DNA of 64,000 nt, taken from NCBI RefSeq assembly GCF_037023745.1, contig NZ_CP146101.1:1426001-1490000 (forward strand), given 5' to 3'. This DNA is from Streptomyces sp. SCSIO 30461 (GTDB lineage Bacteria > Actinomycetota > Actinomycetes > Streptomycetales > Streptomycetaceae). Under the pieces are notes generated by a model. The model saw only the letters and a list, made by a program, of their open reading frames with translations, ran no database searches and had not been told where the DNA came from. Positions 14,492-30,399 of the stretch are shown in pieces (positions within the stretch are counted from its first letter, which is position 1; each line of letters opens with the position of its first letter). Position numbers and translations under genes: made by a program.

Positions 14492-15907
14492 TCACCGTCC
14501 GGTCACCGGGTGCGGGCAGTCCGGCAGCGACGGCTGGTCCCTGGTGCGTACGGCGGGGAGCCAGGCCGTGGGCGGAAGCGAGCCGGACGGCAGTCGGATC
14601 AGGTACCAGTCGGTGGAACGCGCGTTCTCCTCGTCGATGATGGGCTCGCCGCCGCCGAACCGGCAGTGTGCGACCAGGACGTCGCCGTGCCAGACCCGAG
14701 TCGCCACGACGTTGTCCGCGGTGTACGGCCGCGCGGGATCGACGGCGAGGCCCAGGCTGCACAGCCGGTCCCGGTCGGCACGCTCCTGGCAGCCGCGCTC
14801 CGCGTTGAACACCCGTACCGTGCCCGCCGTCGTACCCGCACGGCCACTCCCCGACGCGGTGGAGCCCTGCCGTACCGCGTCCGAGGACAGGGTCGTGCCG
14901 GCGATCCCGCACAGCGCGGTGGCCAGGACGGCGGCGCGGGCCCGGTGCCGCAGCCTCCGCCCCGCCACCGGCCCCGGCGGCCGCTGCCGGGCGGTGACAC
15001 GGGCGAGCAGGCTCTCGGCGGTGTGCGGGGCGCGGGCCTCGTGGTTCGGGGCGAGGCAGTCGGAGGCGAGGGCGCGCCAGAACGGCGGGAGCTCGTGGCC
15101 CAGGCGCAGCGGGGCACGCCCCTGGCCGTATGCCTGGACCGAGGCGCCCCGCGCCATGGGGGTGGCACCGGGGAACGGCGAGCCGCTCGACGTGAACACC
15201 TCGTGAACGATGATGCCCAGGGCCCAGATGTCGGCGGTCGGCCTGACCCGTATGCCGAGCTCGCCGAGTGGCGCGCGCCAGCGCTCGGGCGGGAGGTAGT
15301 CCAGGGTGCCCATGGGCGGGGCGTACCCGTGGGTGCCGGTCAGTTCGGTGGCGAGGCCGAAGTCGGAGAGCTTCACGGAGCCGTCCCTGCCCAGCAGGAT
15401 GTTCTCCGGCTTGAGATCGGCGTGGACCCAGCCCGAGCGGTGCAGATGGGCGAGCCCCTGGCAGATCCCGGCGATCAGTCGGCCGCGATCGGCCTCGGGC
15501 ACCCCCGCGTCCAGGAGCTCCCGCAGACTGCCGGCGGCCCGCTCCATGACGAGCACGATCGCGCCCTCCAGGGCGGGGTGGTCGGGCGCGGCGAGCGCGA
15601 ACGATTCCAGGAGTCCGATCAGCCGGGGATGTCCGGCCCTTCGCCCGAGTTCGACCTCACGGCGGGCGGACTCCACGATCCTGCGTGTCTGCAACGGGGC
15701 GAGGCCGGCGGTCGGCATGATCTTGAGCGCGGCGTCGGCGGGACGGTCGCCGGCCCCGTCTTCGGCCGGTCTCGCCGCGTAGACCGTGGACCAGCCGCCG
15801 GCGCCGATCAGTTCGGTCACAACCCAGTCGCCCACCTGGAAGCCGGGCGGGAGCTGATCCGCGCGGTCGTACTCCGCCGTGTCTCCCGGACCGTGCGTCC
15901 GGGTCAT
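14492..15907 (-). CDS. Membrane-anchored Ser/Thr protein kinase
   Basis: A 471-residue Hanks-type kinase. The catalytic domain (about 25-305) has the glycine loop IGAGGWSTVYAA, Lys62 in ALKIM, the catalytic loop VHADLKPEN with Asp164, and Asp182 in SDFGLA. The usual HRD is HAD, as in some kinases that do not need activation-loop phosphorylation. A transmembrane helix near 324-340 (AAVLATALCGIAGTTL) leads to an outer domain with three cysteines that could sense a ligand. Its start overlaps the FHA gene stop (ATGA), so the two are co-translated. The FHA protein is the likely phospho-partner (inference). Confidence 0.88.
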   Translation of the reverse strand: MTRTHGPGDTAEYDRADQLPPGFQVGDWVVTELIGAGGWSTVYAARPAEDGAGDRPADAALKIMPTAGLAPLQTRRIVESARREVELGRRAGHPRLIGLLESFALAAPDHPALEGAIVLVMERAAGSLRELLDAGVPEADRGRLIAGICQGLAHLHRSGWVHADLKPENILLGRDGSVKLSDFGLATELTGTHGYAPPMGTLDYLPPERWRAPLGELGIRVRPTADIWALGIIVHEVFTSSGSPFPGATPMARGASVQAYGQGRAPLRLGHELPPFWRALASDCLAPNHEARAPHTAESLLARVTARQRPPGPVAGRRLRHRARAAVLATALCGIAGTTLSSDAVRQGSTASGSGRAGTTAGTVRVFNAERGCQERADRDRLCSLGLAVDPARPYTADNVVATRVWHGDVLVAHCRFGGGEPIIDEENARSTDWYLIRLPSGSLPPTAWLPAVRTRDQPSLPDCPHPVTGR

Positions 15908-16716
15908 CGCGCGGCCTGCCGCCCCCGCCCGCCACCAGCCGCCGTCAGGGGTGGCAGCAGCGCGAGGTGTTCCTCACGTACGAGGCCGAAGCGGAGCGCG
16001 AGCCCGACGATCTCCTCCCGCTTGCCGTTGCGACGGTCGGCCTTGCCCGGTTCGTGGGCGGCCTGGCCGCTGATGCGCAGCTTCTCCTCGGCGAGGTAGT
16101 CGATGTGCGAGCTGACCGCCCGCGCGGTCAGCGCCCCGCAGGCGGCATGCCCCTTCAGCCGCTCGACGATCTGGGGGGTCGTGGGGACCGCGACCCGGGA
16201 CTGGTCGCGCAGCCGCGGTTCGCAGAGGGCGACGAGGACCAGGAAGTACGTGGCCGTCTCGTCCAGCGAGTACGCGGTGACCGTGCTGGTCCCCCAGGGC
16301 AGTCCCATGACCTCCGGGTCGAGGTACAGGTGGTCGGGCGCGAACACCTGGAAGGAGACCGCGACGTCACCCCGAGTGGGCAGCACCACGCGGGAGAACT
16401 CGAAGGGGATGGGCGCCCCGACCCTGCGCGGCGGAACTCGCAGGTACTCGCCCGCTCCCTCCGGGTTCTCCACCAGATAGCTGTGGCTCGTGCTGTGATT
16501 CGTCAGTTGCCAGTGGTCGTCGGTCACCCGGATCTCCCCGGCGAGCCGCGAGATCGCCGGGTCGTCGAGGCACAGCTCCACGGGCACCCGGGGGGAGCCC
16601 CGTCCGAAGCGGGCGACCTCGCCCGCACGGAGCCGCAACGTCACACCGTCACCGTGCGGTGCGGAGCCGTCGGCGCTCCCGCTTCCCCGCGGCAGATGGA
16701 CGACTACGCCACTCAC
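15904..16716 (-). CDS. FHA-domain protein with C-terminal winged-helix-like region
   Basis: A 270-residue cytoplasmic protein. The N-terminal FHA domain (about 10-125) shows RFGRGSPRVPVELCLDDPAI and the loop TNHSTSHSYLV, giving the phosphothreonine pocket. The C-terminal half (QIVERLKGHAACGALTARAV, SSHIDYLAEEKLRI) resembles the FHA-linked winged helix seen in other Streptomyces proteins. It is first in a two-gene operon with the kinase. A role as a phospho-dependent adaptor or regulator is likely but not proven. Confidence 0.8.
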   Translation of the reverse strand: MSGVVVHLPRGSGSADGSAPHGDGVTLRLRAGEVARFGRGSPRVPVELCLDDPAISRLAGEIRVTDDHWQLTNHSTSHSYLVENPEGAGEYLRVPPRRVGAPIPFEFSRVVLPTRGDVAVSFQVFAPDHLYLDPEVMGLPWGTSTVTAYSLDETATYFLVLVALCEPRLRDQSRVAVPTTPQIVERLKGHAACGALTARAVSSHIDYLAEEKLRISGQAAHEPGKADRRNGKREEIVGLALRFGLVREEHLALLPPLTAAGGGRGRQAAR

Positions 16717-17009: not shown

Positions 17010-19037
17010 TCAGAGTGTGAGGCTGCCCGAGACCAGCGGTGCGACCGCCCGCTGTCCGAAGGCCGTCCATGGCCGCCAACCGCCACTCGGCCGCTCTTGG
17101 ACCCGGGTCCGTACCCCGCCCGCGACGGTGACGGCGAATACGTGCTGCCGCCCGGTGGAGTCGAGCGCGGACGTCGGCGTCGCCGCGAGACGGAGACCCG
17201 GCTCGCCGAACTCCCCGCCCGGCGCCCAGTCCCCGCCCGGAGCGACCTGCCAGCGGTGGTCGAGCCGCGCGCCGCCGGGCGACAGCGAGAACGCCTCCAG
17301 GCGGCCGTCGGCGTTGGCGGCGAACGCCGGGGCGGCGGCGCTCCAGCCGAACAGCGGCAGCCACTCGGCCCAGCCGCCGCTCGCCACGGCCTGCCGCCGG
17401 GCGAAGGTGCCCACGCCGGACGGCCCGATCGCGGCGACCGTGAGTCGGCCGCTGCCGTCCCGGGCGACCCGGGGTGCGGCACCTGCGGCGGTGCCGTACG
17501 GGTGCCAGCCCGGGGTCCAGGCGCCGCCGGGGGTCTCCTGCCAACGGTGGCGGATGCCCGCGCCGCCGGGGGAGAGGACGAACACCTCCAGCCGGCCGTC
17601 GGCGTTGGCAGCGACCACCGGGGGTGCGCCCGCCGCCCCGCCGAAGCCGATCTCCCACGCGTCCCAGGCCAGTGCCCCCGCCGACCGCTGCCGCCGCCGC
17701 GCGACGGAGCCGCCGCCGGGGCTCAGCGCGAACACCTCCAAGCGGCCGTCGGCATCGTGGGCGACGGCCGGTGCGGCGCCCGCCGGGCCGCCGAACTCCT
17801 CCCACGGGTGCCAGCCGCCGTCCGGCCGCTGCACCCGGTGGTGCAGGTTCACCCCGCCGGGGGCGAGCGAGAACACCTCCAGCCTGCCGTCGGTGTTGCG
17901 GCCGAGGGTGGGCACCGCGCCGGCCGGCCCGCCGAACGGCTCCCACTCCGACCAGCTGTCGGTGTACGGGTCGGTTTGGACGCGCCGCAGCATCGACCGG
18001 TCGGCGGCGTCGAGCGCGAACACCGTGAGGCGGCCGAGCGTGTCGAGGCCGACCACCGGGTTGTCGGCGCTCTGCCACGGCGGCGGGGCGTCCCGCCAGT
18101 GCAGCTGCGCCACGTACAGCCCGTGCCGGAACCAGCCCGCCGCACTGGCGTGCCACGCGTCCCCGTCGCGGACCACCTCGACGGCGTGACCGGCGACATG
18201 GCCCGCGTATCCGGCAAGTCCGAAGTGGAAGGGGTCCCGGGACGCCAGGACGTCGGTCCCCTCGTAGCCGCCTCTGGGACCGATGAACAGGTAGTACCAG
18301 CCGTCCCGTTCGACGACGCACGGCGACTCGGTGACCGAGACGGTCGCGTCCGTGCTCGCGTCGGTGAACGCGACGCCCGGCTCGCTCCAGTTCAGCAGGT
18401 TGGCAGAGCGCCGGTACGCCACGACATGGTGGCCGCCCGGGCCCGACAGCTCGGTGTAGTACATGACCCATTCGGCGCCGATCCGCAGCACCATCGGGTC
18501 GCGCGCCGCGAGCCCCCGGAAGAGCGGTCCCGACGGTTCGCGGGTCCAGGTGAACAGATCGGTCGAGGTGGCGAGGTTGATGGCGGCTCCGGTCGCGCCG
18601 CCCGCGGCGTAGAACATCCAGTACCGGCCGTCGGCCTCGACGACGTGCGGGGCCCACAGATGTTCCTCGCCGTGGTACGACGGGTCGACGCTGAGCGCGG
18701 CGGCGTGGCTGGTCCACGGCCCGACCGGGCTCGGCGCGGAGGCGTGAGCGAAGGCGATCTCCTCGGCGCTGTTCGGTGATTCACCCCGCGGAGCGCTGTC
18801 CCCGACGATGCCGAACAGGTGCCAGCGCCCCTGGGCCTTCACCAGCGTGTGGTCGTTGAGATAGCGCGGGCCGGTGGAGGTGGAGGGGTCGTGGACGTAT
18901 GTGAAGGGTCCGGCGCTCACCCACCGAGGGGGCGGTACGTCCCCGGATGCCGCGGCGCCTTTCGCGCCCAGGAACGGGAGCGTGGCCGCGCCGGCGGCCG
19001 CACCGCGCAAGAGACGCCGTCTGCTGATCGGGATCAT
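17010..19037 (-). CDS. Tat-exported GH43-like protein with PLL-type beta-propeller
   Basis: A 675-residue exported protein. The ATG at 19037 follows GGAGGACCC, and residues 4-30 (ISRRRLLRGAAAGAATLPFL) are a Tat signal. Residues 45-345 form a five-bladed propeller of glycoside hydrolase family 43/62/117 type (YLNDHTLVKAQGRWHLFGIV, EEHLWAPHVVEADGRYWMFY, ARDPMVLRIGAEWVMYYTEL, VTESPCVVERDGWYYLF). From 350 on, repeats of the form NADGRLEVFxLSPGG...HRWQ...GGW form a second propeller of PLL/tectonin type, probably lectin-like. Catalytic residues were not confirmed, so it could be a binding protein. It is followed by two related PLL proteins in the same direction. Confidence 0.75.
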   Translation of the reverse strand: MIPISRRRLLRGAAAGAATLPFLGAKGAAASGDVPPPRWVSAGPFTYVHDPSTSTGPRYLNDHTLVKAQGRWHLFGIVGDSAPRGESPNSAEEIAFAHASAPSPVGPWTSHAAALSVDPSYHGEEHLWAPHVVEADGRYWMFYAAGGATGAAINLATSTDLFTWTREPSGPLFRGLAARDPMVLRIGAEWVMYYTELSGPGGHHVVAYRRSANLLNWSEPGVAFTDASTDATVSVTESPCVVERDGWYYLFIGPRGGYEGTDVLASRDPFHFGLAGYAGHVAGHAVEVVRDGDAWHASAAGWFRHGLYVAQLHWRDAPPPWQSADNPVVGLDTLGRLTVFALDAADRSMLRRVQTDPYTDSWSEWEPFGGPAGAVPTLGRNTDGRLEVFSLAPGGVNLHHRVQRPDGGWHPWEEFGGPAGAAPAVAHDADGRLEVFALSPGGGSVARRRQRSAGALAWDAWEIGFGGAAGAPPVVAANADGRLEVFVLSPGGAGIRHRWQETPGGAWTPGWHPYGTAAGAAPRVARDGSGRLTVAAIGPSGVGTFARRQAVASGGWAEWLPLFGWSAAAPAFAANADGRLEAFSLSPGGARLDHRWQVAPGGDWAPGGEFGEPGLRLAATPTSALDSTGRQHVFAVTVAGGVRTRVQERPSGGWRPWTAFGQRAVAPLVSGSLTL

Positions 19038-19099
19038 GGGTCCTCCGGACGTACCGCGTGGCCGGCCGTGGCGCCGGGGCACGGCCGACCACGGGTGGG

Positions 19100-20653
19100 T
19101 CAGTCGAGGGCGGGGCCGGCGGTGTCGTTGACCCAGACCCAGTCGGACCAGGAGCTGAAGCCGGTCTGCCAGGTGTGGAAGGTGCCGACGGCGTTGGTGC
19201 CGAAGACCTCGATGCGCCCGTCGGCGTTGGAGGCGGCGGTGACCTCGGTGCCGCCGGTACCGAACGTGGCCCACTGGCTGTAGGGGGCGTTGAGACCGGT
19301 CTGCCAGATGTGCATGGCGGAGGTGCCGTTCAGCGCGAAGACCTCGACGCGGCCGTCGGGGGTGCGTTCGCTGGTGAGCTGCGCGTTCACGGGTCCACCG
19401 CCGGTGCCTTCCCAGCCAGACCAACTCGTCGGAGTGGTCTGGTACTTGTGGAACACGCCGGTCGGACCCGAGGCGAAGACCTCCAGACGACCGTCGGCGT
19501 TGTGGTCGACGGTCAGGTCGTGGCCGCCGCTCTCACCGAAGGTCGCCCAGTCGGACCAGCCGCCGTTGGGGGAGGTCTGGTACTTGTGCTCGAAGGTGCT
19601 GCCGTTGAGGGCGAAGACCTCCAGGCGTCCGTCGGGCGCCTTTCCCATTTCCACCCGGCTGTCGGCCGGTCCGCCGCCCGTGGGCTCCCACCCCGACCAG
19701 CCGCCGTTCGGGGCGAGTTGGTACCGGTGGAAGAGCCCGATCGGGCCCGACGCGTACACCTCGATCCGGCCGTCGGCATTGACACCGGCCGCGGCGTCAC
19801 GGCCGCCCTCGCCGAAATTCTCCCAGTTCGACCAGCCGCCGGACGGGTTCAGCTGCCAACGGTGCTGGAAGATGACGCCGTTGAGGGCGAGGAGCTCCAG
19901 GCGGCCGTCGGCGTTGGGTGCGATGGCGAGCTGGGCGTTTCCGGGGCCGCCGAGGAACTCCCAGGACGACCAGTCGCCGTTGACCCGCTGCTGCCAGGCG
20001 TGGTGGATGCCGTCGGCTCCGGCGGCGAACACCTCCAGGCGCCCGTCCGCCGAACGCGCGGACACGACCCGGCCCGACTCCGCCGGGTAGACCGGCGGCT
20101 TGGGCCGCGGGCCGGGGCCCGGTGTGCAGGGCAGTACGATGTCCCGCTCCGCGAGGTGGACCTCGGGGTCGATGCCGTACGACGTGGACGGGTCGCCCCA
20201 GATCCGCAGATGGAGGTGGGGACCGGTGGAGTTCCCCTCGGAGCCCATCAGGGCGATCTGCTGCCCGGCCACGACCCGGTCGCCTTCGAAGACGTCCCGC
20301 CGGGACATGTGCCCGTACTCGGAGATCCTGCCGTCGGGGTGCTGGACCCGGATCCACTGGCCATAGCCGGACTCGTACCCGGAGATGGTCACCACGCCGT
20401 CACCGATGGCGTAGATCGGTGTGCCGACGGCATTGGCGATGTCCACGCCGTTGTGGCGGCTGTGGTAGTGCTGGGTCACGGTGCCGGCCGTCGGGCAGGA
20501 CGCCCCGGCGGCGGCGGACGCGGCGACGGCCGCGCGGGACGGGGCGGCGGCAGTGGCGGGGGCTGCGGCCGTGACCGGCGTCGCCGACAGCAGCAGTGCA
20601 GCGGCCGTGGCGAGAAGACAGGTCAGAACGCTTCGGGGGCGTCTACGGAACAT
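19100..20653 (-). CDS. Secreted M23 (LytM-type) endopeptidase with PLL propeller
   Basis: A 517-residue secreted protein. An N-terminal Sec signal with Ala-rich linker (1-50) leads to an M23 metallopeptidase domain (54-175). The zinc ligands His67 and Asp71 (HNGVDIA) and the HLH motif (His146, His148) are all present, so it should cleave peptidoglycan cross-bridges. From 190 on, seven or so repeats (SADGRLEVFAAGADGIHHAW, NADGRIEVYASGPIGLFHRY) form a PLL-type propeller, likely for wall or glycan binding. Its ATG is seven bases beyond the esterase stop, suggesting one operon. Confidence 0.88.
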   Translation of the reverse strand: MFRRRPRSVLTCLLATAAALLLSATPVTAAAPATAAAPSRAAVAASAAAGASCPTAGTVTQHYHSRHNGVDIANAVGTPIYAIGDGVVTISGYESGYGQWIRVQHPDGRISEYGHMSRRDVFEGDRVVAGQQIALMGSEGNSTGPHLHLRIWGDPSTSYGIDPEVHLAERDIVLPCTPGPGPRPKPPVYPAESGRVVSARSADGRLEVFAAGADGIHHAWQQRVNGDWSSWEFLGGPGNAQLAIAPNADGRLELLALNGVIFQHRWQLNPSGGWSNWENFGEGGRDAAAGVNADGRIEVYASGPIGLFHRYQLAPNGGWSGWEPTGGGPADSRVEMGKAPDGRLEVFALNGSTFEHKYQTSPNGGWSDWATFGESGGHDLTVDHNADGRLEVFASGPTGVFHKYQTTPTSWSGWEGTGGGPVNAQLTSERTPDGRVEVFALNGTSAMHIWQTGLNAPYSQWATFGTGGTEVTAASNADGRIEVFGTNAVGTFHTWQTGFSSWSDWVWVNDTAGPALD

Positions 20654-20660
20654 GAGGCGC

Positions 20661-21650
20661 TCACGCCTTGCGCAGCCGGGCGATGACACCGTCGATATCG
20701 CGCACCAGCATGTCGTGGCGGACGAAGTGGCCGCCGGGCAACTCGTGCCACTCGTGCGGGATGCCCGCGCTGCCGAGGGCGGCCCGGAACTCCCGCTGGC
20801 CCGCGAGAACCTGGGTCTCGTTGGCCGTGTCGAACCAGGAGACCGGGTCCGGGCTGGTGCCGGCTACCAGGAAGACCCGCTTGTGGCGGTAGCTCTCGAT
20901 CCGCTGCATCGGGTTGTCGGCGTTCACCCGGGCCTCGTCCCAGAACGGCGCGCCGTAGACCGTGCCGCCTGCCAGGTCCAGCGTCCCCGAGGTGGCGTTG
21001 GCCCAGTGGACCACGAGACCGCTGTCCCGGCGCAGGCTGGCGGGGCCGGAGTGGGAGCTGACCGAGGCGAAGTGCCCCCAGTACTTGGCCGCGTACTTCA
21101 GCGCGCCGAAGCCGCCCATCGAGAAACCGGACACGGCACGGCCGTCGTACTCCGCGAACGTGCGGAAGTTCGCGTCGATCCACGGGATCAGCTGCTCGAT
21201 GTGGAACGTCTCCCAGTTGCGCGGGCCGACGTTGGAGCTCACCGGGTTGGAGTACCAGCCGGCGCGGCCGCCGTCGGGCATGACGACGATGAGCCGCTTG
21301 CCCGCGGTCCAGTCGCGGATGCGCTCGCGGTCGAAGGTGATGAAGTCCTGGCCGTTGCCGCCCCCGTGGAAGAGATAGAGCACGGGGTAGGTGCGCCCGC
21401 TCCAGTGGTAGTCGTCCGGCAGGAGCACGTTGACGGCGGGGTTCCAGCCGATCGCGCTCGTCTGGAAGCGGTAGTACCACATACGGGGGTCGGCCTCGCC
21501 GCGCTCCACGATGCGCAGGCCGAAGCCGTCACCGACGGCGGCTGCGGAGGTCGCGCCGGCGAGGACGCCTCCGGCGCCGAGGGCCAGAGCGGCCGAAAGG
21601 CCGCCGGCGGACTTCAGGATGCTCCTACGGGTGGGCTGCTGCGCGCTCAA
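20661..21650 (-). CDS. Secreted alpha/beta-hydrolase of esterase D/Ag85 type
   Basis: A 329-residue exported hydrolase. I chose the TTG at 21650 because AGGAGGA lies six bases upstream and the signal (RRSILKSAGGLSAALALGAG, Tat-like) begins there. Strand and oxyanion parts are YPVLYLFHGGGNGQDF, the nucleophile elbow is GFSMGGFG with Ser177, and His is in GGHFVRHD. This fold includes mycolyltransferases, S-formylglutathione hydrolase and feruloyl esterases. A paralogue lies at 24390. Substrate unknown. Confidence 0.85.
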   Translation of the reverse strand: MSAQQPTRRSILKSAGGLSAALALGAGGVLAGATSAAAVGDGFGLRIVERGEADPRMWYYRFQTSAIGWNPAVNVLLPDDYHWSGRTYPVLYLFHGGGNGQDFITFDRERIRDWTAGKRLIVVMPDGGRAGWYSNPVSSNVGPRNWETFHIEQLIPWIDANFRTFAEYDGRAVSGFSMGGFGALKYAAKYWGHFASVSSHSGPASLRRDSGLVVHWANATSGTLDLAGGTVYGAPFWDEARVNADNPMQRIESYRHKRVFLVAGTSPDPVSWFDTANETQVLAGQREFRAALGSAGIPHEWHELPGGHFVRHDMLVRDIDGVIARLRKA

Positions 21651-21869
21651 CGTGTCCTCCTGGTCGGGAGTTATGGCTCGTGTGTGACGGCGAGGTGTCC
21701 GACGCGGCGGAAAGCGGCCGCGGCCGTGCGAACGGGCGTCCGGAACGTAGCAGCGCGAGACGGCCGGGGGACTCCGGAAGATTACGGAGGGACAGCCGAC
21801 GGGCGCGTCGGCTATCCCTGGCCTGTCCGCGTTCGGACCAGGACCCGTACCCCAGGGAAGGACGGCTCG
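21651..21869. promoter_or_regulatory. Divergent promoter region, esterase and acylase
   Basis: About 220 bases separate two divergently transcribed secreted-enzyme genes. Promoters for both must be here. The sequence ggaagattacggagggac (21775-21793) is a possible leader. No repeat pair that would mark a shared operator was recognised. Confidence 0.3.
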
Positions 21870-24335
21870 ATGGCACGGAGGAGACACAGGGTGCGGCTGC
21901 CGATGGCCGTCCTGGCCGCGGCGGCGGTGATGAGCACGGTGGCGGCCACCGGATTGACAGCCGCGGCACCGGCCGCCGGCGGGCAGGGGCCGGCGCCGGA
22001 GAAGCCGACGATCCGCTACACCGAGTACGGAATCCCGCACATCGTCGCCTCGGACTGGGCGGGTCTCGGCACGGGCTACGGATACGCGGCGGCCAAGGAC
22101 AACATCTGCACCCTGGCCGACACCTATCTGATGGTCAACGCCCAGAGGTCCCGCCATCTGGGGCCCGAGGGCAAGGCGAGCCCCGGCCAGAACCAGAACA
22201 CCACCACCAACCTCAACAGCGACCTGTACTTCCAGAGGATCAAGGACAACCGGGTGGTGGAGCGGCTGCTCGCCGAGCCGGCCCCCAACGGCCCCGCGCC
22301 GGAGGTCACGGAGGCCATCCGCGGCTACGTCCAGGGCTACAACCGGTACCTGGCCGAGACGGGCGTGGACAACCTCTCCGACCCCGCCTGCCGCGGTGCG
22401 GACTGGGTGCGGCCGATCACCGAGATGGACGTCTACCGGCACGCCCATGCCGAGATCATCATGGGTAGCGCCGACGCGCTGCTGGACGGGCTGGTCAACG
22501 CAGCGCCTCCCGGAGCCACCGCAGCCTCGACGACGGCAGACCCGCCTGCCAAGACCGCCGAGAAGATCCGCGACGCGATGGCCGCGAGCCGTGAACAGAG
22601 CATGGGCAGCAACGCGTTGGCGGTCGGTTCGCAGGGTGTGTCCGGCGGCACGAGCATGCTGCTGGCCAACCCGCACTTCCCGTGGCAGGGCAAGAACCGC
22701 ATGTGGCAGAGCCAGCTGACGATCCCGGGCAGGATCAATGTCTCCGGGGCCAGCCTGTTGGGCCTCCCCGCGATCAACATCGGCTACAACGAGAACGTCG
22801 CCTGGAGCCACACGGTCGCCACCGTCGCGCCGTTCGGCCTCTTCGACGTCCAGGTGGATCCGCTGAACCCCACCAAGTACCTGGTGGACGGCGCCTGGGA
22901 GCAGATGACCTCGCAGCAGGTCGCGGTCGACGTACGGAACGCGGACGGCACCCTCTCCCAGGTCACCAGGACCCTGTGGTCCACCCGCTACGGCCCGATC
23001 ACCACCTCCGTGCAGGGCGTGCCCCTGCCCTGGGTGGTCAGCGCGCACGCGGTGCGCGACGCGAACCTCGACAACCTGCGCGCACTGAACACCTGGTTCC
23101 GACTCGACCAGGCCAAGGACGTCCACGACGTCGTCGACGCCCTGGAGAGCACTCAGGGAGTGCCCTTCTTCAACACCGTCGCCTCCGACCGCAAGGGCAA
23201 CGCCCTGTACGCGGACATCCAGGCCACCCCGAACATCACCGACGAACACGCCCGGTCGTGTCTCACCGAGACGGGCAAGCTGCTGTTCAACCAGACGCTC
23301 CGGCTGCCGAACGTCCCGCCGATCTCCGTGTTCGACGGCAAGCGCAGCGCGTGCGACTGGCCCGACGACCCGAACGCGGCCGCGCCGGGCCTGCTGGACC
23401 CGAGGAAGCAGCCGCGCTTGATCCGTACCGACTTCGTGGGCAATGCCAACGACAGCCCCTGGCTGGCCAACCCCGAGCAGCCGTTGACCTTCCCCAGGGT
23501 GATGGGCGACAGCGCGGCGCCCCGCTCGCTGCGTACCCAGGAGCTCATCCTGACCGCGCAGAAGCGGATCGACGGCACCGACGGACTGCCGGGCAGGGGC
23601 TTCACCCCGGAGACCATGGGGCGGCTGCTCTTCGCCGACAACAGCCGGGCGGCCGACCTGGCCCTCAACACCACGGTGTCGATGTGCCGGAGCGTCCCCT
23701 TCGGGCTGGTTCTGGTGGACGGCAACCTGGTGAACGTGAGCGAGGCGTGCCCGATCTTGGCCGCTTGGAAGAGCCATGACTACACGTCGGACAGCAGCGG
23801 CTCCTGGCTGTTCGCGCACTACTGGTCCTTCATTCTCGGAGGACAGGGGATCGAGAAGCTGCCGTGGCGGGTGCCCTTCGACCCCAAGGACCCCGTGCAC
23901 ACGCCGAATTCGCTGGACTCCGGCAGCTCTGTCCTCCGTGACGCCCTCGGCCGGGCCGTTCTCGCGCTGCGCAGGGCGGGCATCCCGCTGAACGCCCGGC
24001 TGTCGGACGTCCAGAAGATCACCCGTGGGGGAGATCAGATCCCGATCCACGGCTCGATCGGCCAACTGGGGGTGCTGAACGTGGTCACGCCCGGTCAGGT
24101 TGACGGAAAGTTCGACATCGTCTACGGATCGAGCTTCATCCAGCAGGTCCTGTTCACCGCCGACGGGCCGCCGCAGGCGCTCTCCGTCCTGGCTTACTCC
24201 CAGTCGGCCGACCCCACCTCACCGCACCACATCGACCAGACGAAGTTGTTCTCGGCCGGACAGTGGGTGACTGAGCGCTTCACCGAGGAACAGATCGCGG
24301 CTTCACCGGAACTGCGGATCAAGGTCCTGAGCTGA
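21870..24335 (+). CDS. Secreted penicillin acylase-family (AHL/echinocandin-type) acylase
   Basis: An 821-residue Ntn hydrolase precursor with a Sec signal (MARRRHRVRLPMAVLAAAAV). The alpha-subunit region (50-240) has IRYTEYGIPHIVASDWAGLG and GYGYAAAKDNICTLAD. The spacer ends at EQSMG, and Ser247 in GSNALAVG would become the N-terminal nucleophile of the beta-subunit after self-cleavage. The beta part shows ANPHFPWQG and NIGYNENVAWSHTVA. This matches the branch with Streptomyces AhlM, aculeacin A acylase and Pseudomonas PvdQ, which remove acyl chains from lactones or lipopeptides. Which substrate applies here cannot be told. Confidence 0.88.
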   Translation: MARRRHRVRLPMAVLAAAAVMSTVAATGLTAAAPAAGGQGPAPEKPTIRYTEYGIPHIVASDWAGLGTGYGYAAAKDNICTLADTYLMVNAQRSRHLGPEGKASPGQNQNTTTNLNSDLYFQRIKDNRVVERLLAEPAPNGPAPEVTEAIRGYVQGYNRYLAETGVDNLSDPACRGADWVRPITEMDVYRHAHAEIIMGSADALLDGLVNAAPPGATAASTTADPPAKTAEKIRDAMAASREQSMGSNALAVGSQGVSGGTSMLLANPHFPWQGKNRMWQSQLTIPGRINVSGASLLGLPAINIGYNENVAWSHTVATVAPFGLFDVQVDPLNPTKYLVDGAWEQMTSQQVAVDVRNADGTLSQVTRTLWSTRYGPITTSVQGVPLPWVVSAHAVRDANLDNLRALNTWFRLDQAKDVHDVVDALESTQGVPFFNTVASDRKGNALYADIQATPNITDEHARSCLTETGKLLFNQTLRLPNVPPISVFDGKRSACDWPDDPNAAAPGLLDPRKQPRLIRTDFVGNANDSPWLANPEQPLTFPRVMGDSAAPRSLRTQELILTAQKRIDGTDGLPGRGFTPETMGRLLFADNSRAADLALNTTVSMCRSVPFGLVLVDGNLVNVSEACPILAAWKSHDYTSDSSGSWLFAHYWSFILGGQGIEKLPWRVPFDPKDPVHTPNSLDSGSSVLRDALGRAVLALRRAGIPLNARLSDVQKITRGGDQIPIHGSIGQLGVLNVVTPGQVDGKFDIVYGSSFIQQVLFTADGPPQALSVLAYSQSADPTSPHHIDQTKLFSAGQWVTERFTEEQIAASPELRIKVLS

Positions 24336-24389
24336 CGTGCACCTGAGCTGACGTGCACCCATGACCGACACCTCATGAGGGAGAACGTT

Positions 24390-25475
24390 GTGACGAGACG
24401 AGCGAACTGGTGGCGACTGGGGGCGGCGTGGATGCTCGCCGCCGCGGCCATGGTCGCGCCGGCGGGTTCGGTCCAGGCCGCCGACGGCGGCACTGTGCCG
24501 CCGCCGATGCCGAACGGCTTCGGCCTGACCCAGGTCGACACGGCGAAGGGCAGCGCCACGAACTTCTACCTGACGGTGACCACGCCCGAGGTCGCCGGCG
24601 AGCAGCACATCAAGATCATTCTTCCGAGCGGATATCACGACGACCACTCCCGGCGCTACCCGGTGGTGTACTTCCTGCACGGCTCGCCGGACGACCCGAT
24701 CCATCAGGACTATCCGGCGCTCTCCATGTCGGACTCCATGATCACCGTCATTCCGGACGGCGGCGCCCGAGGCTGGTACGCGAACTGGCTCAACCAGAAG
24801 ACCGCGGCCGGTGCCCAGAACTGGGAGAACTTCCACCTCAAGCAGGTGATCCCGTACATCGACGCGAACCTGAGGACCATCCCCACCAAGAAGGCGCGGG
24901 CCGTCGTCGGCGTCTCCATGGGCGGCTTCGGCGCCTTCCGCTACGCCCAGGCGCGCCCGGACCTGTTCAGTCAGACCGCGTCCCTGTCGGGCGACATCGA
25001 CCTGTCGGTCAGGTCCATGGACCTGAGGCTCGCCGTCGTCGCCTCGCTGATCGACGCACAGGGCGCCATCTGCGGCTCGGCGTCCGGTGCCTGCGACCCG
25101 AAGGACTCCCCGTACAAGCCAGGCGTGGACAGCGACGCCGCGTTCGGCTCTCCGTACCCGGTGTTCAACGCCGACCGGCGGTGGAACGAGGTCGACCCCT
25201 CGCAGCACATGGACAGGCTCAAGACGGGCGGCGTCGGCGTCTCCCTCTACGTCGGCAACGGCGGCGGCTCGCCCACCGACATCGAGTTCTGGCTCGAAGG
25301 AGCGGCCAAGCACGTCAAGAACGCGATGGACGCCCTCGGTATGTCGTACCACTACGTCAACTACGGCGACGGTTCCGGCTGGGGCACGCTGTGCGACGGG
25401 GGCCACAACGGCGGCTGTTGGGAAGAGTCCCTCCGGGACCTGATCCCCAGGCTGGAGAGGTCCTTCACCTCCTGA
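24390..25475 (+). CDS. Secreted esterase D/Ag85-type hydrolase
   Basis: A 361-residue exported hydrolase. The GTG at 24390 has GAGGGAGA upstream; an ATG at 24375 lacks a ribosome site. The signal ends near VQAADGG. YPVVYFLHGSPDDP gives the oxyanion strand and GVSMGGFG holds the nucleophile Ser176. Four cysteines (AICGSASGACDP, TLCDGGHNGGCW) probably form disulfides. It follows the acylase gene by 55 bases in the same direction and may share its transcript. It is a diverged paralogue of the protein at 20661. Confidence 0.85.
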   Translation: MTRRANWWRLGAAWMLAAAAMVAPAGSVQAADGGTVPPPMPNGFGLTQVDTAKGSATNFYLTVTTPEVAGEQHIKIILPSGYHDDHSRRYPVVYFLHGSPDDPIHQDYPALSMSDSMITVIPDGGARGWYANWLNQKTAAGAQNWENFHLKQVIPYIDANLRTIPTKKARAVVGVSMGGFGAFRYAQARPDLFSQTASLSGDIDLSVRSMDLRLAVVASLIDAQGAICGSASGACDPKDSPYKPGVDSDAAFGSPYPVFNADRRWNEVDPSQHMDRLKTGGVGVSLYVGNGGGSPTDIEFWLEGAAKHVKNAMDALGMSYHYVNYGDGSGWGTLCDGGHNGGCWEESLRDLIPRLERSFTS

Positions 25476-25481
25476 AGCGGA

Positions 25482-25540
25482 CCCGGCCCGCACGGGACGA
25501 CGGCCAACGCGACGCCGGTCGTCGTCCCGTGCGGGCCGGG
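25482..25540. terminator. Bidirectional terminator between convergent genes
   Basis: The arms CCCGGCCCGCACGGGACGAC and its reverse complement (about 21 pairs) enclose a short loop. The hairpin lies between the plus-strand esterase stop and the minus-strand gene ending at 25587, and can serve both. Confidence 0.75.
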
Positions 25541-25586
25541 CGGGAGCCGCACACTCCCTCGACCTCATCCGGTCCTGCTGGATCGG

Positions 25587-27260
25587 CTAATCCATCACCG
25601 GCCCGCGGTCGTTCAGCCAGCCCCACCCGGACCACGAGGCGAAGCCGGTCTGCCAGCGGTGGTAGACGCCGGCGTGGCTGGTGCCGAAGACCTCGATGCG
25701 GCCGTCGGCGTTGTTGCTCGCGCCGATCGCCGTGCCGCCGCCGCCGAACGACTCCCACTGCGCGTACGCCGCGTTCGGGGCGGTCTGCCAGGCGTGGCCG
25801 GCGGTGGTGGCGTTGATCGCGAACACCTCGACCCGGCCGTCCACCGACCGCGAGGTGGCCAGCTCGGCGTCGGCGGGCCCGCCGCCGGTCCCCGTCCACG
25901 CCGACCAGGAGGTCGGGCTGGTCTGCCAGCGGTGGAACACGCCGTCGGGGTTGGACGCGAACACCTCGATACGGCCGTCCTGGTTGTGGCTGACGGCGAC
26001 CGACTTGCCGCCGGTGCCGAAGTCCTCCCAGGCGGACCAGCCGCCGTTCACGCCGGTCTGGTACAGATGCTGGAAAGTCGCGTCGGACAGCGCGAACACC
26101 TCGAGCCGGCCGTCTGGCGCGTTCTCCATGGCGAGGCGCGCGTTCGCCGGGCCGCCGCCGGTGCCGTCCCAGGCGGCCCAGCCGCCGCCGGGCGCCGTCT
26201 GCCATCGGTGGAACACGCCGTCGGGGTTGGAGGCGAACACCTCGATACGGCCGTCGGCGTTGGTGCCCGCCGCAACCCGGTACCCGCCCGTGCCGAAGTT
26301 CGCCCAGCCGGACCATCCCGCGCTGGGCGCGGTCTGCCACATATGGTCGAAGGTCGCGTCGGACAGCGCGAACAGCTCCAGCCGACCGTCCGCGTTGGTC
26401 GCTACCGCCAGCTGCGCGTTGCGCGGGCCGCCCGCGAAACGCCACGGCGACCAGTTGCCGTTCACTTGGGTCTGCCATGCGTGATACACCCCGTCGGCAC
26501 CGGCGGCGAAAGCCTCCAGGCGCCCGTCCGCGGACCGGCCGGAGACCACCCGGCCCGAACCGTACGGGCGCTTGGGCCCGCCGCTCGTCCCGGCCCACAG
26601 CGCGTTGGCTACGAGCGCGGCGTCGCCGGCCTCAAGGCCGTACAGGTGACGCAGGTCCTCACGGGGCCGCTGCACGTTCCAGGCGACGTAACCGATCTCC
26701 TGGTTGTTCCAGGAGCCGCCGGGGAACTGCTGCTCCATGGCGTCGAGGAAGGCGTTGGTGGCGTACGCCGGGTTCAGTCGCTGCTCGCGGGTGCCCCACC
26801 AGTCCTGCTGCTGGAACAGGCCGAGGCTGGTGTGGTCGACGGCCTGGGAGTAGTTGTTCATGCTGGCCTCGACGATGATCGTGGCGATGGCGATGGTCGC
26901 GGCCTTCGGGTTGAGCCCGCGGTCCTTCACCGCCTGCGTGACCATCCGGGCGCAGGACATCTTGTACGCGTCGAGATAGCCGGCCATCTTCGCGCCGAGC
27001 TGAGGGTTGAGCTGATCGGCCATGACGCCGTCGGTGGCCGACGGTCCGACGGGATCACAGGGGACGGTGGGAATGGCCTTCCCCTCGACCACCCCCTCCG
27101 GCCCCAGGAAGTACCGGGAGACCCCGTTCCGGTCGCCCCCGGGGCCGGGCGGCACGGGACGGGCGACGCCGACCGAGGCGGTCATGCCGATGACCAGGGC
27201 CCAGAGGACGGTGACGACGGCGAATCGGGAGAGCATGCGGGATAAGCCGGTTCTTGCCAT
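25587..27260 (-). CDS. Secreted transglycosylase-like protein with PLL propeller
   Basis: A 557-residue exported protein with a Sec signal (FAVVTVLWALVIGMTASVGV). Residues 100-235 resemble the peptidoglycan hydrolase-like domain found in actinomycetes (TIAIATIIVEASMNNYSQAV, SLGLFQQQDWWGTREQRLNP), in which Glu of IVEAS may be catalytic. From 250 on, seven repeats (NADGRIEVFASNPDGVFHRW) form a PLL-type propeller. It matches the propeller of the M23 protein at 19100 closely, from GSGRVVSGRSADGRLEAFAA to the C-terminal SGWGWLNDRGPVMD. The pair looks like two cell-wall enzymes given the same binding module. Confidence 0.82.
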   Translation of the reverse strand: MARTGLSRMLSRFAVVTVLWALVIGMTASVGVARPVPPGPGGDRNGVSRYFLGPEGVVEGKAIPTVPCDPVGPSATDGVMADQLNPQLGAKMAGYLDAYKMSCARMVTQAVKDRGLNPKAATIAIATIIVEASMNNYSQAVDHTSLGLFQQQDWWGTREQRLNPAYATNAFLDAMEQQFPGGSWNNQEIGYVAWNVQRPREDLRHLYGLEAGDAALVANALWAGTSGGPKRPYGSGRVVSGRSADGRLEAFAAGADGVYHAWQTQVNGNWSPWRFAGGPRNAQLAVATNADGRLELFALSDATFDHMWQTAPSAGWSGWANFGTGGYRVAAGTNADGRIEVFASNPDGVFHRWQTAPGGGWAAWDGTGGGPANARLAMENAPDGRLEVFALSDATFQHLYQTGVNGGWSAWEDFGTGGKSVAVSHNQDGRIEVFASNPDGVFHRWQTSPTSWSAWTGTGGGPADAELATSRSVDGRVEVFAINATTAGHAWQTAPNAAYAQWESFGGGGTAIGASNNADGRIEVFGTSHAGVYHRWQTGFASWSGWGWLNDRGPVMD

Positions 27261-27496
27261 GGAGTGCCTCTCTGTCTGTCGTACGGGCCGTGCCGGTTGC
27301 CCGAGCAGGGGACGCCGTCGACAAACTAGGGGGGCCGCGCGCGGCAAGGCATCCGGAACGATCCGGAGTGACACGGACAGGAGCCGACGTCGGGGGAGTG
27401 GCGGTGGAAGCCCATACGGCGCGCCCACGCTTGGCCGCTGTGGTGCGATCAGGCCTCAGGTGTGTGGTTCGTCCTGAGGCGGCGGCGCGGGCTCGG

Positions 27497-28609: not shown

Positions 28610-28821
28610 GTGTTTCAGGATGGCACTTGTGTGTCGTGTGTGTTAATCCGCTGCCGAACCTCTTGTGGGAGCCTTGAAGATCAGTCAACCTTTCGGTCGG
28701 CAGTCACCGCGTGTAGACAGAACGATCCCCGCTCGTCTCAAACCCCAATTTGTCATGAGCATGTCCTATTTGCGGTGTCCGCCTCCCCCACGTAGCAGGA
28801 CCGATGAGGAGGACCCCCACC
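28610..28821. promoter_or_regulatory. Divergent promoter region before the subtilase gene
   Basis: About 210 bases, locally AT-richer (aaaccccaatttgtcatgagcatgtcctattt at 28739-28770), separate the PLP enzyme gene from the subtilase gene. Promoters for both should lie here. The strong ribosome site AGGAGGA at 28807 belongs to the subtilase. Confidence 0.35.
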
Positions 28822-30399
28822 ATGCATGCGATGCGAGATGCCCGGCGAAGACTGTCCGCGGCCAGTGCCATAGTCGTCGCCGCCCTCGCGCTCGGCACCG
28901 CGTCAGCCTCCCAGGCGACCGCGGTCGAGCCGGCGCCGGAAGGCGTCATCCAGAACGCGGGTGCGCCCGGCGCCATCGCCGGCAGCTACATCGTCACTCT
29001 CGACGGTTCCGCCGCCGACGCCGGTTCCAAGGCGGGCAAGGCCCTTGCCGCGGAGTACGGAGCGAAGATCAAGAGGACCTTCCGCGCCGCGCTGAACGGC
29101 TACTCCGTACAGCTCACCGAGGCGCAGGCGAAGAAGTTCGCCGCGGACCCGGACGTCAAGTCCGTGGTGCAGAACCGTGTCTTCAAGACCAACGACACCC
29201 AGACCAACCCGCCGTCCTGGGGTCTGGACCGCATCGACCAGCAGTCCCTGCCGGTCAACTCGAGTTACACCTACCCGGCGTCGGCCGGTGGCGGCGTCAC
29301 GGCATACATCATCGACACCGGTGTCCGTATCACCCACAGCGACTTCGGTGGCCGCGCCTCCTACGGCTACGACGCCATCGACAACGACTACACCGCCCAG
29401 GACGGCAACGGCCACGGCACGCATGTCGCCGCGACGGTCGCCGGCAGCTCCTACGGTGTCGCCAAGAAGGCCAAGATCGTGGGTGTCCGGGTGCTCGACG
29501 ACGAGGGCTCCGGCACCACCGAGCAGGTCGTCGCGGGCATCGACTGGGTGACCCGTAACGCCGTGAAGCCGGCCGTCGTCAACATGAGCCTCGGTGGTGG
29601 CGCCGACACCGCGATCGACACCGCGGTGGGCAACTCCATCGCGGCAGGCATCACCTACGTGGTCGCTGCGGGCAACGACGGCGCCAACGCGTCCAACTAC
29701 TCCCCGGCCCGGGTGGCCGCGGCGATCACCGTCGGCTCGACCACGAGCTCCGACGCGCGCTCCGGCTTCTCCAACTACGGCAGCTCGCTGGACATCTTCG
29801 CGCCCGGCTCGTCCATCACCTCCGCCTGGAACACCGGCGACAGCGCCACCAGCACCATCTCCGGGACGTCCATGGCCTCACCGCACGTCGCGGGCGCCGC
29901 CGCCGTCTATCTCGCGGACAACCAGTCGGCCACTCCGGCCCAGGTCTCCACGGCCCTGACGACGGCCGCCACCCAGAACAAGGTCACCAGCGCGGGCACG
30001 GGCTCCCCGAACCGTCTGCTGTACGTCGGCGGCGGCACGACCACCCCGCCCGGCACCACGAAGTTCGAGAACACGGCGGACCACACCATCAGTGACAACG
30101 CCACTGTGGAGTCGTCCATCACCGTCAGCGGGGTCTCGGGCAACGCCCCGAGTTCGCTCCAGGTGCCCGTCAGCATCGTGCACACCTACATCGGCGACCT
30201 CCAGGTCCAGCTGATCGCCCCGGACGGCACCGCGTACACGCTGAAGTCGTACGGCACCGGCGGCAGCGCGGACAACATCAGCACCACGTACACGGTGAAC
30301 GCCTCGTCCGAGGCCGCGAACGGCACGTGGAAGCTGAGGGTCAGCGACAACGCGAGCTACGACACCGGGAAGATCGACTCCTGGGGTCTCCAGTTCTGA
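28822..30399 (+). CDS. Secreted subtilisin-like protease with P-domain
   Basis: A 525-residue preproprotease. The ATG at 28822 is preferred over 28804 because AGGAGGA sits nine bases upstream. After the signal ([20 protein letters not shown]) comes an I9 propeptide (GSYIVTLDG, about 54-125). The S8 domain has Asp165 (YIIDTG), His198 (GNGHGTHVA) and Ser350 ([12 protein letters not shown]). A C-terminal P-domain (about 410-525, [40 protein letters not shown]) is like that of proprotein convertases. It should be an extracellular alkaline protease. A hairpin at 30420 closes the transcript. Confidence 0.93.

Follow-up and report, generated by a model that had tools for sequence, protein, structure and literature searches.

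Background

The PLL/PHL lectins of Photorhabdus are seven-bladed beta-propellers that are described as standing alone. In this work, we describe a locus of Streptomyces sp. SCSIO 30461 in which propellers of the same repeat are fused to enzymes. The locus lies in a window of 64,000 nucleotides (contig NZ_CP146101.1, positions 1,426,001 to 1,490,000), which is the whole stretch of DNA analysed and to which coordinates refer unless a locus number is given. Its six genes encode a GH43 protein, an M23 endopeptidase and a GH184-like muramidase, each joined to a PLL-type propeller, together with two esterases (EST1 and EST2) and an acylase (ACY). The homology to the Photorhabdus propellers is clear (E 3.8e-67). 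The differences are that the propellers here are joined to catalytic domains of GH43, M23 and muramidase type, and that the pocket residues of the GH43-linked propeller are, by eye, partly lost.

Three other described systems bear comparison. In the umbrella toxins of Streptomyces, the beta-propellers of UmbA bind a teichuronic-acid-like wall polymer of the target species (PMC13274773). Like the present set, these are exported Streptomyces proteins with diversified propeller lectins, and many species have several such lectins (PMC13274773). The cargo differs, however, since enzymes are here fused directly to the module in place of an UmbC toxin particle. A trypsin-like domain, which UmbA combines with its lectin, was found in none of the eight window proteins scanned, and UmbB and UmbC were not searched for. 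GH184 muramidases share with our muramidase domain the sequence profile (E 3.5e-13), the fold (template modelling (TM) score 0.80), and the catalytic glutamate with a second acid. Bacterial members of this family are reported to have no domain for wall binding (PMC10394673), whereas the present domain is fused to a propeller. Finally, RpfB and RipA of mycobacteria are likewise a glycan cutter and an endopeptidase acting together (PMC2262848); these two are joined by protein-protein interaction, possibly at the cell's own septum, whereas the partners described here carry a matching module. A literature search, with most subscription papers outside its reach, returned no description of this grouping.

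On the evidence below, our preferred reading, to which we assign a probability of roughly 0.55, is that the locus encodes a regulon of exported wall-lysing enzymes on propellers of a shared type, directed at the walls of other bacteria.

Results

Three enzymes with PLL-type propellers

The initial annotation had placed six genes here, including three propeller fusions, and this is borne out at the same positions by Pfam and PDB matches, with the gene starts corrected. The propellers of the M23 and muramidase proteins, described there as close relatives including the linker, are 66% identical, and SGRVVS.RSADGRLE is found in both proteins. Against those two, the GH43 propeller shows identities of 37% and 38%, so the close relationship holds for two of the three propellers. 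Seven W-motif blades were counted in the muramidase propeller, and fewer clear motifs in that of the GH43 protein. In the propellers of the M23 and muramidase proteins, most aromatic residues of the pockets and stacking positions are kept, as judged by eye; the GH43 propeller has often lost them. That the enzymes address the same surface ligand had been proposed as one reading; from their identity and aromatic residues, the M23 and muramidase propellers could plausibly share a ligand, the GH43 propeller less so.

The muramidase domain had been called transglycosylase-like. For this protein, Pfam gives the repeat model in the propeller and nothing else. A profile of 29 sequences of the domain, in turn, matches the solved GH184 muramidases 8b2h (E 3.5e-13) and 8b2e (E 1.6e-6), and the predicted fold superposes on 8b2e with a TM score of 0.80 by target length and a root-mean-square deviation of 1.7, in a prediction whose local confidence score (pLDDT) is at least 90 for 125 of 233 residues. 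E131 and D142 are invariant across the 29 aligned sequences and correspond to Glu125 and Asp150 of TtGH184, as counted by hand along the alignment; TtGH184 Glu125 corresponds in turn to the catalytic Glu41 of KsGH184 (PMC10394673). By sequence and fold, the domain label is corrected to that of a putative GH184-like muramidase, which may act by hydrolysis or by transglycosylation.

The solved structure nearest to the GH43 domain is the endo-arabinanase 6b7k. The domain keeps the D/D/E catalytic acids of GH43 at YLND, ARDP and TESP (located by eye). In the M23 domain, the HxxxD and HxH motifs of this family are both present by eye. Each of the three PLL-fused proteins has an export signal, read by eye, and these enzymes as well as ACY and EST2 are probably exported.

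Some further matches to these domains were noted. Part of the muramidase domain is matched by phage records H22-H29, from Gordonia and Rhodococcus phages, several of which are annotated as tail proteins. A phage or plasmid origin was considered and rejected, no record in two collections covering 80% of the muramidase protein. The same Streptomyces genome contains, at 7.36 Mb, a second and distant PLL-like propeller (L067:7676-10237, E 9.7e-6), in an open reading frame (ORF) that, by a motif seen by eye, resembles a PIG-L-type deacetylase as well. At L052:8627-10456, a PLL-type propeller stands behind an N-terminal part that resembles, by eye, a matrixin-type metalloprotease.

Recurrence in other genomes

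The muramidase-PLL protein was matched in 22 of 150 genomes of the same genus at E <= 1e-20, in 20 of them via the propeller and in two (G031 and G120) via the muramidase domain. In 20 fetched regions, the order kinase-FHA-GH43-M23-(EST1)-ACY-EST2-muramidase is seen in several species, and variants exist; certain genomes have an SLT_3 lysozyme domain (PF18896) or an NlpC/P60-like domain in place of the muramidase or next to it.

A wider collection of named loci was retrieved by similarity to the muramidase-PLL protein, so that one PLL-fused domain per locus is given beforehand. Of these, 78 were kept and 53 annotated (L109-L161), while L162-L186 were not annotated; 48 loci (L109-L156) were counted. 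Two or more PLL-fused hydrolases that differ in type were present in 39 of the 48 loci, and at least three in 22; several of the nine negative loci end at contig edges. When five more annotated loci (L157-L161), which show no PLL-fused hydrolase, are added, the figure becomes 39 of 53. With GH43 excluded, two or more peptidoglycan-type PLL fusions are found in 31 of the 48 loci. The loci with a set include those of the Pseudonocardiaceae Amycolatopsis (L135), Actinokineospora (L136) and Herbihabitans (L140). Co-occurrence of the genes elsewhere had been proposed as a check, and the grouping does recur, both as syntenic blocks and in the named loci.

An operator-like site shared by the promoters

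A near-palindrome is common to the upstream regions of the set genes of relatives. A site matrix trained on 25 other loci, with the window excluded, was compared with a null of 100 resamples, the maximum of which was 19.3. Only two sites in the window exceed this value, one between EST1 and ACY (34.5) and one upstream of the muramidase gene (25.7); the next best scores 7.4. Note that the first matrix held one site shared with a muramidase promoter, and that the scores given are those of the scan repeated without it. The muramidase gene starts 92 bp from the second site. In the genome of 8.05 Mb, a relaxed pattern yields three exact sites, which are the two in the window and one other.

Across the 150 genomes, a stricter pattern gives 30 exact sites in 17 genomes, all of which are among the 20 with an orthologue of the FHA-like protein encoded beside the locus, and none in the other 130 (Fisher p 1.1e-19, kinship ignored); the reversed-pattern control gives one site. 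Three of the 20 genomes (G004, G143 and G091) have the orthologue and no exact site. When the second window site is added to the 30 exact ones, 28 of the 31 lie at most 250 bp from the start of a system gene or catalytic domain that reads away from the site. The three without such a gene are L043:14826, L200:3262 and L201:6817, and at L200:3262 a ricin-like ORF begins 140 bp away. The pattern was derived from the M23/EST1 upstream regions of named relatives, some of which are genomes also included in the 150 (L109, L114, L128, L129 and L147), which brings some circularity into the sites found ahead of M23, EST1 and ACY. Genes that were not used for the pattern are preceded by 17 of the 31 sites: 11 SARP genes, three ricin-type genes, two genes for LGFP-tailed muramidase-like enzymes and the muramidase gene of the window.

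The set is thus probably co-regulated via this site. The initial annotation had named, as a finding that would speak against it, that the genes are scattered in related strains and not co-regulated; given the recurrence and the operator-like site common to the promoters, they are, as far as sequence tells, neither scattered nor lacking in co-regulation, and the proposal survives at that level.

Kinase, FHA-like protein and other candidate regulators

A Ser/Thr kinase gene and a gene for an FHA-like protein (14492-16716) form an extension of the island. The kinase has one hydrophobic segment, seen by eye, which suggests a membrane topology with a single segment, and a C-terminal region beyond the kinase domain. 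The FHA-like protein has a weak Pfam match (PF16697, E 0.013) and, by eye, an FHA motif; PF16697 is a family of the FHA clan. An AlphaFold model of this protein was rejected as unusable (pLDDT 39.5), and a DNA-binding role for it is therefore put forward as a proposal.

Orthologues of the FHA-like protein at 73% or above were found in 20 of the 150 genomes, the next match being at 55%. Their neighbours are PLL hydrolases in 15 cases and LGFP-tailed muramidase-like or NlpC-like enzymes in three, with none recognised in two. As a control, 20 regions holding FHA homologues of greater distance were inspected; none has such a set next to the homologue, and one contains a weak M23 match of 21 bits (L087). 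From these associations, the likeliest sensor and switch of the set would be the neighbouring kinase and FHA-like protein.

In many relatives, a SARP-type regulator, composed of a LuxR helix-turn-helix, a winged helix and BTAD, is encoded beside the muramidase gene, and it lies with a cutinase-like gene between the operator site and that gene (for example, L035:6900-8648). It was rejected as the regulator: it occurs at 69% or above in 15 of the 150 genomes, the present genome not among them, and accompanies the site in 13 of the 17 operator genomes, versus 17 of 17 for the FHA-like protein. At E <= 1e-60, the present genome has no SARP match.

Matching and exchanged modules in relatives

In relatives, neighbouring hydrolases with unrelated catalytic domains carry shared modules that are up to 99% identical. 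The modules of NlpC/P60-like enzymes match those of an Rpf-type transglycosylase (99.1% in L100, 97.0% in L089) or of a GH184-like enzyme (96.7% in L064, 85.7% in L054), and similar pairs join a muramidase-like to an M15-like enzyme, the latter recognised by eye (95.7%, L050), and M23 to SLT_3 (94.8%, L046). A parallel set on another propeller is found at L068:7197-11770, where a GH43 protein and two M23 proteins carry a tectonin-type module at 61-66% identity.

Loci L064 and L089 are instructive when compared with each other. Their NlpC-like regions are 83% identical over 191 residues, and their modules show no similarity at E 1e-3, whereas between each module and that of its own neighbour the identity is 97%. 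Judged from this comparison, a catalytic domain can be retained when its module is exchanged. Thirteen NlpC-like places score above 88 bits; ten of them have a same-module neighbour in the fetched region, two are on cut contigs and one has none. Among lower-scoring places, a sample of seven regions (L102-L108) includes one with such a neighbour (L104).

In a tree of 80 PLL modules, those of M23 and SLT_3 proteins pair by genome in four of seven cases (L144, L151 and L154 with strong support, L142 with weaker; 93, 100, 98 and 93% identical). The propellers of 14 NlpC-like proteins are split over both main PLL branches, nine and five. Two or more sets with different modules are present in G074, G054, G060 and G078, among the genomes examined. 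When 11 partner enzymes were scanned with PF00877, one was above the cut-off (L104, 24.7 bits versus 23), five were below it (L064, L056, L065, L095 and L101), and the match was not shown for the other five (L089, L100, L054, L097 and L151).

Esterases and acylase

Both esterases, described initially as Ag85-type, match PF00756 (EST1 E 2.1e-47, EST2 E 2.9e-29). For EST1, the nearest solved relatives are feruloyl esterases, followed by Cmt1 and Ag85; a match to the TAT signal PF10518 (E 0.00098) is below its cut-off. For EST2, Protein PS1 (E 1.6e-15) is narrowly ahead of the esterase 8z91 (E 1.4e-14) in the PDB. By these similarities the esterase assignment holds, and Ag85 is one among several PF00756 relatives (feruloyl esterases, Cmt1, PS1 and Ag85), which weakens it as the specific label. 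ACY had been described as an acylase of acyl-homoserine lactone (AHL) or lipopeptide type. It matches penicillin amidase (PF01804, E 2.4e-123) and PDB 5c9i (E 4.3e-145), with PvdQ also matched, and it scores 602 bits against the PvdQ equivalog for AHL acylases, below the cut-off of 950. It is thus best described from sequence as a PvdQ-like acylase of the penicillin-amidase family, the PvdQ label proper being weakened.

Layout of the locus

The features of the locus are listed in Table 1. EST1 ends 7 bp before the M23 gene, and a single operon with the M23-PLL and GH43-PLL genes, which are 62 bp apart, is therefore probable; ACY-EST2 is probably a divergent unit, and the muramidase gene probably separate. 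A subtilase with a P-domain adjoins the island (28804-30399). Neither this gene nor the PALP gene (27497) was found in the 20 regions of relatives, and the two are therefore not counted as parts of the island.

Table 1. Genes, domains and operator-like sites of the propeller enzyme locus
Feature	Position	Strand	Basis or remark
Ser/Thr kinase gene	14492-15907	-	PF00069 E 1.6e-35; adjoins island in relatives
FHA-like gene	15904-16716	-	Candidate regulator; 4-bp overlap with kinase gene
GH43-PLL gene	17010-19037	-	PF04616 and PLL propeller
PLL-type propeller of GH43 protein, diverged	17010-18077	-	PDB PLL2 E 2.7e-46
TAT-like signal (by eye) and GH43 catalytic domain	18078-19037	-	PF04616 E 3.3e-11; PDB 6b7k E 4.5e-8
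M23-PLL gene	19100-20653	-	PF01551 and PLL propeller
PLL-type propeller of M23 protein	19100-20077	-	66% identity to muramidase propeller
Signal peptide (by eye) and M23 endopeptidase domain	20078-20653	-	PF01551 E 4.7e-30
EST1	20661-21650	-	TTG start; PF00756 esterase; TAT-like signal
Operator-like near-palindrome CTGTCCCTCCGTAATCTTCCGGAGTCC between EST1 and ACY	21769-21795	-	Score 34.5
ACY acylase	21870-24335	+	PF01804
EST2	24375-25475	+	PF00756 esterase; paired with ACY
Muramidase-PLL gene	25587-27260	-	GH184-like domain and PLL propeller
PLL-type propeller of muramidase protein	25587-26558	-	PDB PLL2 E 3.8e-67
Export signal (by eye) and GH184-like muramidase domain	26559-27260	-	Profile 8b2h, 8b2e; fold 8b2e
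Second operator-like site GTGTCACTCCGGATCGTTCCGGATGCC upstream of muramidase gene	27348-27374	-	Score 25.7

Discussion

The sequences themselves show the domains, the synteny, the operator-like sites, the matching of modules and their exchange. For export, activity, binding, the identity of the regulator, the target and the benefit to the producer, we infer the following. The M23 enzyme would cut peptide stems, the GH184-like muramidase glycan strands and the GH43 enzyme a polysaccharide, while the PLL-type propeller would hold each of them on a surface glycan of the target cell. Cutting of strands and stems on one surface would be synergistic, and the esterases and acylase would be produced together with the propeller enzymes. 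Expression would be switched via the shared operator, with the kinase and the FHA-like protein in the roles proposed above. Such sets would evolve as sets, in which neighbours tend to retain modules that match, and species differ in the type of module. The walls under attack would most likely be those of bacteria other than the producer, probably Gram-positive ones. These grounds make such an attack plausible; antagonism is favoured because of the patchy distribution of the set, the presence in some genomes of at least two sets with different modules, and the precedent of the umbrella toxins. Taken as a whole, the interpretation of the initial annotation is partly supported.

Several observations weigh against this reading. 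The GH43 propeller fits a common ligand less well, with its identity of 37-38%. All 16 muramidase/M23 propeller pairs of the window's type are 62-68% identical and not homogenised, and neither are the remaining three of the seven M23/SLT_3 pairs (80-83%). Identity of modules within a genome can also come from gene conversion between neighbouring repeats, with no selection involved. Pfam gives weak backing to the NlpC/P60 label, the basis of which is the similarity of these enzymes to one another and, by eye, a motif resembling DCSGFVSMAW. As for the regulation, a site is present within 260 bp upstream in just 8 of 27 muramidase upstream regions, and no exact operator site lies near the sets with modules of FG-GAP or tachylectin type. 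The third site of the genome (L197:7690-7709) lies 28 bp before an NlpC/P60-family ORF that carries no such module. In addition, relatives of EST1 at 70% or above are present in 29 of the 150 genomes, in 19 of these away from PLL or FHA-orthologue matches, and ACY-EST2 is placed elsewhere, apart from the set, in G071 and G134. The esterases and acylase are linked to the set less tightly.

The third genomic site may point to a wider wall regulon, and it would fit a regulon for the producer's own wall. This is the main and a serious rival, namely that the set remodels its own wall in growth, lysis of old hyphae, sporulation or envelope stress, with modules that match the variable wall polymer of each species. 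Pairs of glycan cutter and endopeptidase are known in such a role, RipA acting in synergy with RpfB in mycobacteria (PMC2262848), and regulation by a kinase would suit the sensing of wall state. A set for the own wall would, however, hardly be expected to be as patchy as is observed (20 of the 150 genomes match the propeller at E <= 1e-20), and some genomes have at least two sets of different modules, more than one own polymer needs; we regard this explanation as rather unlikely, while keeping it in close view. The set could also serve nutrition, digesting polysaccharide and dead bacterial, fungal or plant cells, with the propeller as an ordinary carbohydrate-binding module. The relationship of the GH43 domain to endo-arabinanases and of EST1 to feruloyl esterases, both acting on plant polysaccharide, agrees with scavenging, as does the binding of fucose and galactose by PLL lectins (PMC5584973, PMC6943638), but the two or more peptidoglycan-type PLL-fused enzymes in 31 of the 48 loci would be needless for plant breakdown, which makes this a distinctly less probable account than own-wall remodelling. 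Finally, exported enzymes might have piled up around one duplicated propeller with no joint function, given that beta-propellers are continuously amplified from single blades (PMC9218822) and that adjacent repeats can convert each other. The recurrent synteny, the confinement of the operator pattern to genomes with the FHA orthologue and the matching modules of several unrelated types leave this very improbable. The reading as a regulon of wall-lysing enzymes aimed at other bacteria is the one that we prefer.

A broader generalisation is offered more tentatively, at somewhat short of even odds. Streptomyces and relatives may possess sets of lysins, each with a glycan cutter, a cutter of stem peptides and accessory hydrolases, that carry the same exchangeable surface-binding module. 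The modules would agree inside each genome and be swapped together from one species to the next, which would amount to a toolkit that is retargeted together. One such set would be a regulon under an operator of its own, linked to the kinase and to the FHA-like protein, which may sense damage or competitors.

If the preferred reading is true, the locus would be an enzyme-based counterpart to the lectin-guided umbrella toxins, in which a single exchangeable module, common to several wall-cutting activities, brings them to one surface. It would make testable predictions, namely a shared ligand, synergy and operator-dependent induction, and the sets of Streptomyces and its relatives would constitute a natural collection of matched pairs of glycan cutters and peptide cutters.

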